This document shows, piece after piece, positions 28,770 through 31,128 of a stretch of 54,303 bases of DNA (positions are counted from its first letter, which is position 1; each line of letters opens with the position of its first letter). Under the pieces are notes generated by a model that worked only from the letters and a program-made list of their open reading frames with translations, made no database searches and was not told the origin of the DNA. The DNA lies in NCBI GenBank assembly GCA_022824765.1, contig JAJDZG010000083.1:1-54303 (forward strand), given 5' to 3'. The stretch is from Dehalococcoidia bacterium. Lineage in GTDB: Bacteria > Chloroflexota > Dehalococcoidia > Bin125. The translations under genes were made by a program, and so were the position numbers.

Positions 28770-28798
28770 GTGACATCTCCCCTCGTCTGTGATACTAT
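28770..28798 (+). promoter_or_regulatory. Candidate sigma70-type promoter of the sirtuin leader
   Basis: -35 GTGACA (28770-28775), 17-nt spacer, -10 TACTAT (28793-28798). Confidence 0.55.
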
Positions 28799-28828
28799 GA
28801 CAGCGTCGGGACGAGAGAGGAGGCTCTC

Positions 28829-28894
28829 ATGCGCAAGCTGAATATCCACCTCGTCTTTGGAGTCCTTCAAGTCGACAGGCCAGGCTCCCACTAG
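28829..28894 (+). CDS. Candidate 21-aa leader mini-ORF MRKLNIHLVFGVLQVDRPGSH
   Basis: ATG with upstream GAGAGGAGG; TAG lies at the loop/stem edge of a 7-bp hairpin; an intrinsic terminator follows. Confidence 0.4.
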   Translation: MRKLNIHLVFGVLQVDRPGSH

Positions 28895-28913
28895 GGAGCC
28901 AGAGCCTCAGTAC

Positions 28914-28938
28914 AACGCCCCCGCAAAGGGGGCGTTTT
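28914..28938 (+). terminator. Intrinsic terminator between mini-ORF and sirtuin gene
   Basis: AACGCCCCC-GCAAA-GGGGGCGTT followed by TT: 9-bp GC-rich stem with a short T tract. Confidence 0.8.
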
Positions 28939-28969
28939 CGTATCTGCGGAATCTGCGAACATCGCGCCC

Positions 28970-29767
28970 ATGACTGAATCGTCCGGCCAGCATCAGGAAT
29001 CGATCGAGCGCGCCGCCGACTTGCTCGCGCAGTCTCGATACTGCATCGCCCTGACCGGCGCCGGCATTTCGGCCGAGTCGGGTATCCCCACCTTTCGCGG
29101 CAAGGACGGCCTCTGGACCAAGCACGGCGAACCGCCGCTGAACCAATACGAGCAGTTCTCCGCCGATCCCGCGCTGTGGTGGGAAAACGTCGCAGAACGC
29201 CGCCGCAACCCTGACGAGTTGACCGCCACAATCGCCGAGGCGCAGCCCAACGACGCCCACTACGCCATGGCCGAGCTGGAGCGCATTGGCGTCCTCAAGC
29301 ACATCATCACCCAGAACGTTGACGGCCTGCACCGCGCCGCGGGCGCTCAGTCCCTCACCGAGATTCACGGCTGCACCAGCCTGCTGCGCTGCATTGACTG
29401 CAACACGCGCTCGCCCTTTGACGAGCTGCCAGAACTCTTCCCGCCCCGCTGCGATCAGTGCGGCGGCATCGTCAAGACCGACACCGTGATGTTCGGCGAG
29501 CCGATTCCGCCCGATTGCCTGCAACGCTGCTACGAAGAGTCGTCCAAGGCAGACTGCGTGATCCTGGTCGGAACGACCGCCGTGGTCTCGCCCGCCGCGG
29601 ACTTCGCCTTCGCAATCGGACAGCGCGGACATCCGATGATCGAGGTCAATCTCGATCCCACGATCATCACCCAATACTGTGCGGTCGCAATCCATGATCG
29701 CGCCGGTGAGTTGATGTCTCGGATCGCGGCCGAAGTGAAACGCATCCAGTCCGATCCCGAGCCCTGA
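28970..29767 (+). CDS. NAD-dependent protein deacylase (SIR2/sirtuin)
   Basis: ALTGAGISAESGIPTFRGKDGLW; TQNVDGLHRAAG; two CxxC pairs CIDC...CDQCGG; FGEPIPP. Confidence 0.93.
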   Translation: MTESSGQHQESIERAADLLAQSRYCIALTGAGISAESGIPTFRGKDGLWTKHGEPPLNQYEQFSADPALWWENVAERRRNPDELTATIAEAQPNDAHYAMAELERIGVLKHIITQNVDGLHRAAGAQSLTEIHGCTSLLRCIDCNTRSPFDELPELFPPRCDQCGGIVKTDTVMFGEPIPPDCLQRCYEESSKADCVILVGTTAVVSPAADFAFAIGQRGHPMIEVNLDPTIITQYCAVAIHDRAGELMSRIAAEVKRIQSDPEP

Positions 29768-29802
29768 GCCGGGTTGGACAGATCGGTCCGTATACTCGCG
29801 GC

Positions 29803-31128
29803 ATGACCACCACCCCAAACCTCGGCATCAACTGGGACGACGTGACCGCAGAGATCACGTCAACCCTCCGCGACTTCCTGCGCATCAACACCTCCAACCC
29901 GCCGGGCAACGAGCAAGCGGCCGCTGAATGGCTCGCCACGCTGCTGGAACCTGAGGGCTACGAGTGCGAGTATGTCGAAGCCGGCCCAGGCCGCGTCTCA
30001 ATGCGCACCCGCCTCGCCGGCACCGGCGATGCGGCCCCGCTGATGCTGCTCAATCACACCGATGTCGTGCCCGTCCAAGAGGAATTCTGGGACGTCGATC
30101 CCTTCGCCGCCGTCGAGCAAGACGGCATGCTCTGGGGGCGCGGTGCGCTCGATATGAAGGGCATGGGCACCCTCGAACTGCTGATCATGCTGCTCTTCAA
30201 GCGACTCAAGCTGACCCCGCAGCGCGACATCATCTTCCTCGCCGTGGCCGACGAAGAAGCCGGCTCCGCCTTCGGCATGGAGTGGTTGGACCAAAACGAG
30301 CAGTCCTGGATTACCGAGCCCGAGTACGCGCTCAATGAGGGCGGCATGGGCGCCTTGAACATGCTCGGCTCCAACCGACCAGTCTTCGCCTGCGCGCCGT
30401 CCGAAAAGTCCCCGCTCTGGCTCAAGCTCCGTGCCGAAGGCCAGCCCGGACACGGCTCCACCCCGCACGGCGACAACGCCGTCGAGCGCCTGATTCGCGC
30501 GCTCTTCGCGATCCAGAACTGGGACCGCGCCGTGACGGTCCAGCCGCACACCGCCGAAGCCTTGCAGCGGATGCGCGACGCCAACGCCTGGCCCGGCTCC
30601 GCGCCCAGCGTGGCCCAGCTGTGCCAGACCTATCCCGCATTCGCCGCCGTCACCCGAGACACCATCTCCAACACCGGCGCGACCAGCGGGATCAAGCACA
30701 ACGTGATCCCCGCTGACGCCGAAGCCACGCTCGATTGCCGCCTCCTCCCCGGCGAAACCTACGACAGCTTCATCAAGCAGATGCGCGACGTGATCGACGA
30801 CGACAAGGTCGATGTCGAGGTCGTCTTCGGCAGTATGGGCCCATCGAGCAGCTTCGAGACCGAAATCGTGAGCGTGATTGAGGACGTCGTCCGCGAGCAG
30901 GTCGAGGGCGCGCTCGTCGTGCCGTCCACCTGCGTGGGCTTCACCGATTCGCGTGTGCTGCGTCGACATGGCGTACATTCCTATGGGTTCGTGCCGACCT
31001 TGATGGATGCCTCGCTCGCGGCCGGCGTGCACGGACACAACGAGCGCACTCCGATCGAAGGCCTGAACACCGGCATCCAGATCCTCTTTGAAGTCGTGCG
31101 GCGCTTCACCAACGCGCAGCGACTCTAG
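29803..31128 (+). CDS. M20 family metallopeptidase (ArgE/DapE/carboxypeptidase G2-like)
   Basis: NTSNPPGNEQAAAEWL; LLNHTDVVPVQEEFWDVDPF; GRGALDMKGMG; ADEEAGSAFGMEWL. Confidence 0.92.
   Translation: MTTTPNLGINWDDVTAEITSTLRDFLRINTSNPPGNEQAAAEWLATLLEPEGYECEYVEAGPGRVSMRTRLAGTGDAAPLMLLNHTDVVPVQEEFWDVDPFAAVEQDGMLWGRGALDMKGMGTLELLIMLLFKRLKLTPQRDIIFLAVADEEAGSAFGMEWLDQNEQSWITEPEYALNEGGMGALNMLGSNRPVFACAPSEKSPLWLKLRAEGQPGHGSTPHGDNAVERLIRALFAIQNWDRAVTVQPHTAEALQRMRDANAWPGSAPSVAQLCQTYPAFAAVTRDTISNTGATSGIKHNVIPADAEATLDCRLLPGETYDSFIKQMRDVIDDDKVDVEVVFGSMGPSSSFETEIVSVIEDVVREQVEGALVVPSTCVGFTDSRVLRRHGVHSYGFVPTLMDASLAAGVHGHNERTPIEGLNTGIQILFEVVRRFTNAQRL

Follow-up and report, generated by a model that had tools for sequence, protein, structure and literature searches.

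Arrest peptides of the TnaC and SpeFL type control operons in cis. In the macrolide-inducible leader ErmBL the ribosome stalls with Asp10 in its P site, and residues R7-K11 matter (PMC8274638). Here we describe an element of ~135 nt that lies directly 5' of a sirtuin gene in a stretch of 54,303 nucleotides (hereafter the window; contig JAJDZG010000083.1) from a Dehalococcoidia metagenome-assembled genome (here G000, assembly GCA_022824765.1), and which joins a promoter, a Shine-Dalgarno (SD) sequence, a short open reading frame (mini-ORF), a hairpin (P1) and a terminator-like hairpin (T). Comparison with other genomes, mostly metagenome bins, establishes the element's conservation, coding character, structure and membership in a family spread across Chloroflexota, and further suggests a ribosome pause, a role in trans and read-through into the sirtuin gene. 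On balance, and with moderate confidence, we favor its interpretation as an independent small mRNA whose mini-ORF would pause ribosomes at a Val-Asp pair, with the sirtuin gene probably reached by read-through.

The locus resembles ErmBL in carrying a short ORF with an SD sequence, and its LVFGVLQVD-R can be aligned with LVFQMRNVD-K, which we take to be the ErmBL sequence, at a shuffle p of ~0.01 for this one post hoc comparison; the resemblance is not significant once the post hoc choice is counted and serves as a suggestive lead only. Unlike ErmBL-type leaders, it has no resistance gene in cis (a sirtuin gene follows, and an ABC transporter only in one relative, G018), and its family carries its own terminator, is mostly free-standing and yielded no alternative fold. 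With TnaC and SpeFL it shares a short nascent chain and conserved C-terminal residues at or adjoining the stop codon, but its relatives lack an operon in cis. Dual-function small RNAs (sRNAs) such as SgrS and RNAIII are likewise free-standing, with a strong promoter, a terminator and a structured RNA combined with a small ORF; however, no sequence relation to them is seen (no Rfam match at E<=1), and the hairpin of the present family keeps a fixed distance from an ORF codon. An internal SD-like sequence on the 5' side and a stem 5-9 nt 3' of the critical codons also recall dnaX-type frameshift cassettes, yet the family has no slippery heptamer (it reads TGG CAG GTN GAY), and beyond Asp its reading frames are short and variable. 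By analogy, then, the element would work in the manner of arrest-peptide leaders or dual-function sRNAs, yet it departs from the known members in the very features that define them.

The element and its conservation in the genus

The mini-ORF (28829-28894, + strand) comprises 21 codons from an ATG at 28829 to a TAG at 28892-28894 and encodes MRKLNIHLVFGVLQVDRPGSH (peptides are given up to their stop codons), with the core H-L-V-F-G-V-L-Q-V-D at 28847-28876 (+ strand). Orthologous leaders were taken from 15 same-genus genomes and one sister genus (G017), 16 in all. Conservation upstream of orthologs, on which an earlier interpretation of this DNA made from its letters (the sequence-only reading) had let its proposal stand or fall, was found throughout: the element is directly 5' of the sirtuin gene in every same-genus genome whose upstream region is assembled, as well as in the sister genus, and promoter hexamers, SD, mini-ORF, a hairpin near the stop codon and the terminator hairpin are kept in all 15 same-genus genomes and in the sister genus; in the genus, the sequence between and around these elements is poorly conserved. 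The promoter spacer and the loop of T are variable, as is the stretch of 25-35 nt that precedes the sirtuin ATG.

Among the 16 genomes the mini-ORF varies at 13/15 third positions and at 3/30 first and second positions (p=7e-7), a comparative signal indicating that it is translated over evolution. Its synonymous sites are more conserved than those of the sirtuin gene (identity 0.76 vs. 0.58, the leader value being reached by 2/224 sirtuin windows), so its nucleotide sequence is constrained as well. Peptide residues 1-16 are retained and the tail RPGSR is not, the sister-genus peptide being MRKLNIHLVFGVLQVD; P1 of that genome carries one compensatory pair change at an unchanged distance from the Asp codon. 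As a side observation, every genome of the genus uses CTT for Leu at codon 13 of the mini-ORF (window 28865-28873), a very rare choice that makes up 1% of the Leu codons of window genes; it recurs in two relatives from other families (L109 and L110).

The surrounding signals (all + strand) are all present as the sequence-only reading had described them. The promoter (28770-28798) consists of GTGACA (28770-28775), a 17-nt spacer and TACTAT (28793-28798); its hexamers are conserved while the spacer varies in the 16 orthologs, and it is the sole σ70-like site in 3 kb scanned (0.3 in shuffles). The SD sequence AGGAGG (28818-28823) is kept in the genus and in most relatives. P1, GGCTCCC-ACTA-GGGAGCC (28883-28900), has 7 bp, begins 6 nt past the Asp codon and holds the TAG at its loop/stem edge. 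Only ~14 nt further on stands T (28914-28938), AACGCCCCC-GCAAA-GGGGGCGTT at 28914-28936 followed by TTTCGTAT, with arms invariant and loop variable among the orthologs. Its hairpin and its distance of 33 nt from the sirtuin ATG (28970) agree with the terminator proposed earlier, with the caveat that the T tract is short and the tail weaker still in most orthologs (GTTGTCGTAT); a simple terminator scan left the window T hairpin uncalled owing to that short tract. As a whole, the window leader is more stably folded than its shuffles (z -3.5, 0/200).

A family of small RNAs across Chloroflexota

A narrow pattern (NxHL...) scanned over the contigs of all genomes returned only the window genus and its sister. 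It was too narrow for the family, which emerged only with a covariance model and relaxed patterns. The model of the 16 leaders (R1), a covariation approach that the sequence-only reading had recommended, detected one more copy within the window's taxonomic family, in G018 (E=1.1e-7), where MLRTAIHALYGVWQTD is followed by a hairpin, a terminator and an ABC transporter operon, and relaxed patterns derived from this copy were then used to find further members. With chance matches within long frames excluded, and with pattern searches sampling the family incompletely, 20 Chloroflexota families (16 of Dehalococcoidia, 4 of other classes) hold at least 34 genuine members besides those of the genus and its sister. 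Example peptides are MRLHVIFGVWQVDR, MKLHVLYGVWQVDK, MTLHKMYGVWQVDW, MVRLHKVFGVLQVD and MYPMKKPHKVYGVWQVDF. True members have an ORF of 12-27 codons, a properly placed SD and a GC hairpin downstream; their core is H-x-x-[FY]-G-V-[WLF]-Q-[VT]-D, and the stop usually lies 0-1 codons past Asp and nearly always 0-7, two members running on for 17 and 25. In 40 cores from more than 20 families, the first two codon positions of H, G, V, Q and D never change and third positions are free, except that the core Gly codon is always GGA (33/40) or GGG (7/40); in window genes, GGA makes up 14% of all Gly codons.

Most copies resemble free-standing RNA genes of ~240 nt, in which a strong promoter, the mini-ORF, P1, a structured RNA of 115-160 nt and a strong terminator follow one another. 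The best promoters of this long form read TTGACA-17-TATAAT, in many with 47-51 nt from the end of the -10 box to the start codon, and 11/31 members vs. 6/487 control stretches score >=10/12. Sixteen free-standing members share P1, a long helix P2 enclosing P3 and P4, and T, a three-way-junction structure with 91.9% of cells paired; two-sided changes occur in 26/38 pairs, as against 12.3 +/- 2.0 in shuffles (0/500 reach the observed value) and far lower values in all slid controls. The genes downstream vary from copy to copy, often lie on the opposite strand and putatively include, from their translations, cysS, rpe, tatD, an M16 peptidase and a nitronate monooxygenase-like gene. In L109 and L110 synteny is shared, with a peptidase-like gene before the free-standing RNA and a membrane protein beginning MESTGELAWFRSEI after it. 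ARAGORN detected no transfer-messenger RNA (tmRNA) in 11 relatives' loci, and no phage or viral contigs carrying the element were found.

The same neighborhoods bear on a regulatory proposal of the sequence-only reading, which had speculated about a metabolite- or NAD-responsive element and had itself thought a classical amino-acid attenuator unlikely. An NAD/nicotinamide riboswitch or such an attenuator has the position before an NAD-consuming enzyme, and nothing else, in its favor; the window has no Rfam match at the gathering threshold, 13 relatives' loci have none at E<=1, the peptides contain no repeated regulatory codons (in the window, no run of codons for a single amino acid) and family members adjoin unrelated genes, so that we regard either mechanism as highly improbable. 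Literature searches for GVWQVD gave no match, those on sirtuin leaders and Chloroflexi motifs nothing relevant, and the RNA family is apparently undescribed and absent from Rfam. The other suggestion of the sequence-only reading, a ~135-nt sRNA carrying its own terminator, agrees with the relatives, which are free-standing and have no constant gene downstream.

A second covariance model, built from free-standing members only (R2), matches in 146 kb the window (E=0.002), the sister genus (2.6e-4) and G018 (2.6e-4). The window element has the SD and core ORF, a GC hairpin 6 nt past Asp, and a promoter and terminator, the latter with a weak T tract, of the family; intermediates are MLRTAIHALYGVWQTD, from its own taxonomic family, and MHQKLHVYYGVWQVDRAGSR (L158), whose stop falls within the P1 loop as does that of the window (VDRPGSR). 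Since R2 links the window to the family and detects the full-length form nowhere in the window genome, sequence comparison assigns the window element to a short branch in which the P2-P4 domain was lost or never present.

Three further loci came up in the searches. In L095 (G327), on the reverse strand ~200 nt past the matched lysC end and between lysC and rpiB, a GTG-started mini-ORF, MYHVKTHLLHGVLIVQY, has an SD, a hairpin immediately after its stop and a terminator ~100 nt on; it is possibly a diverged family member, and R2 does not match this locus. A G046 leader, MRLLTSHLLAEHKTTVIVTFAPLII (E=0.0015; L086 ~4034-3900, minus strand), was judged unrelated; it is leader-like, is followed by a terminator (GAGCCCCCGCAAGGGGGCTTTTCC) and could be a different attenuator. 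The pattern matches in L048 (G391) and L049 (G156) arose by chance in a shared Dehalococcoidia secreted protein starting MRKWNIHL.

Asp-to-hairpin spacing and a predicted ribosome pause

In 41/47 copies P1 starts 6-7 nt past the Asp codon, whether the stop is immediate or follows five to seven codons later, and a hairpin score >=15 is reached at this site in 91% of cases vs. 5.8% of control sites. The natural reference point for such spacing would be a ribosome decoding Asp, which would place the base of P1 at the mRNA entry. GGRG, spanning core codons 5-6, would then lie 8 nt 5' of the P-site codon, a good SD distance, and the conserved chain HxxFGVxQ would fill the upper ribosomal tunnel; in the window the corresponding GGAG (28859-28862, + strand), 8 nt 5' of the Val codon before Asp, is a possible internal SD. 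Because SD-like GGRG, fixed core and entry-channel hairpin coincide, this anatomy suggests a programmed ribosome pause at Val-Asp, to which internal SD-like sequence, nascent chain and hairpin would each contribute. As free-standing copies have no gene in cis to regulate, the peptide, the RNA domain or a ribosome-RNA complex should act in trans.

Action in trans could also be imagined for a free microprotein of 12-21 residues, with hairpin and terminator merely ending or stabilizing its mRNA. The strong promoter and SD, the strongly conserved peptide core and a single copy per genome (by pattern search) would suit such a product, but restriction of the Gly codon to GGR, retention of the rare CTT codon in the genus, constant Asp-to-P1 spacing, the large structured 3' domain, and residues after Asp that are free and can be absent make us doubt it.

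Probable read-through into the sirtuin gene

The sirtuin gene (SIR2 family; 28970-29767, + strand; Pfam PF02146, E=1.7e-45) begins 25-45 nt past the terminator in the orthologs, with no evident promoter inside this gap. In the window genus and in G018, P2-P4 are absent and a gene, sirtuin or ABC transporter, follows closely. With a weak terminator tail and no visible sirtuin promoter, the sirtuin gene is probably reached by read-through in the window genus; incomplete termination would thus probably also supply sirtuin mRNA from the element promoter. A leader role of this read-through kind is possible in this one genus, given that the stretch from terminator to ATG shows no promoter. It is not a general sirtuin trait, the leader being absent in L017, L019 and the class-level sirtuins examined. 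Translation past the stop codon, or from a second ATG within the linker, was dismissed by eye: the linker differs in length from species to species, and the sirtuin is not joined by any constant frame.

A cis-acting form of the attenuator suggested by the sequence-only reading would go further, with stalling on the mini-ORF, by a drug, a metabolite or the nascent chain, refolding the leader so that RNA polymerase passes the terminator and the sirtuin is induced. The invariable position directly 5' of the sirtuin gene in the genus and its sister, the short gap lacking an evident promoter, and the ABC transporter of G018, a known target of drug-inducible leaders, speak for such a cis-acting device. 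No conserved antiterminator was found among genus members, however: pairing 2:3 (P1 3' arm with terminator 5' arm) contains a fixed A-C mismatch genus-wide and forms a weak duplex of -7.3 to -9.5 vs. ~-18 kcal/mol for the terminator. Pairing 1:4 (P1 5' arm with terminator 3' arm) is possible in 99% of cells with no two-sided change and hence uninformative, a helix sequestering the SD and start shows invariant or one-sided changes only, and an anti-P1 helix between ORF codons and the 5' arm of P1, judged by eye, is not conserved (CAA/CAG changes). With free-standing relatives that lack a gene in cis, and a mini-ORF that also precedes an ABC transporter, the attenuator is not supported, and we consider a cis-acting sirtuin leader rather unlikely.

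It is important to note that several points weigh against an independent small mRNA with a ribosome pause, the interpretation favored here. The constant sirtuin neighbor in the window genus would be equally explained by a role in cis; the R2 match to the window is modest; the window branch is without the three-way-junction domain by which the long form is defined, and its function may have changed; and the pause is deduced from anatomy alone.

The remaining neighbors of the element are a LysM/M23 peptidase gene upstream, on the opposite strand, and an M20 peptidase gene downstream of the sirtuin. The latter has a TATACT box 6-7 nt before its ATG (window 29790-29805), also present in L005, L007, L008, L010, L012 and L014, which looks like a leaderless promoter kept genus-wide; the M20 gene accordingly need not rely on the sirtuin transcript.

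Phylum-wide conserved small RNAs missing from Rfam are rare finds, and with this family a phylum poor in known RNA biology gains an mRNA-like gene. It accounts for the window leader and cautions against interpreting that leader as an NAD sensor. A translated 14-codon ORF, a hairpin at fixed distance and a covarying three-way junction together make a testable case of a ribosome pause outside cis-attenuation. More tentatively, and as a possibility to which we give the lesser weight, the family may represent a housekeeping RNA across Chloroflexota, whose mini-ORF would be translated to park a ribosome, held by the internal SD, a tunnel-active HxxFGVWQVD chain and the entry-channel hairpin. Its structured RNA or ribosome-RNA complex would then sense translation or regulate while bound to the ribosome, acting in trans, and one genus would have taken over the short form as a leader for its sirtuin gene.
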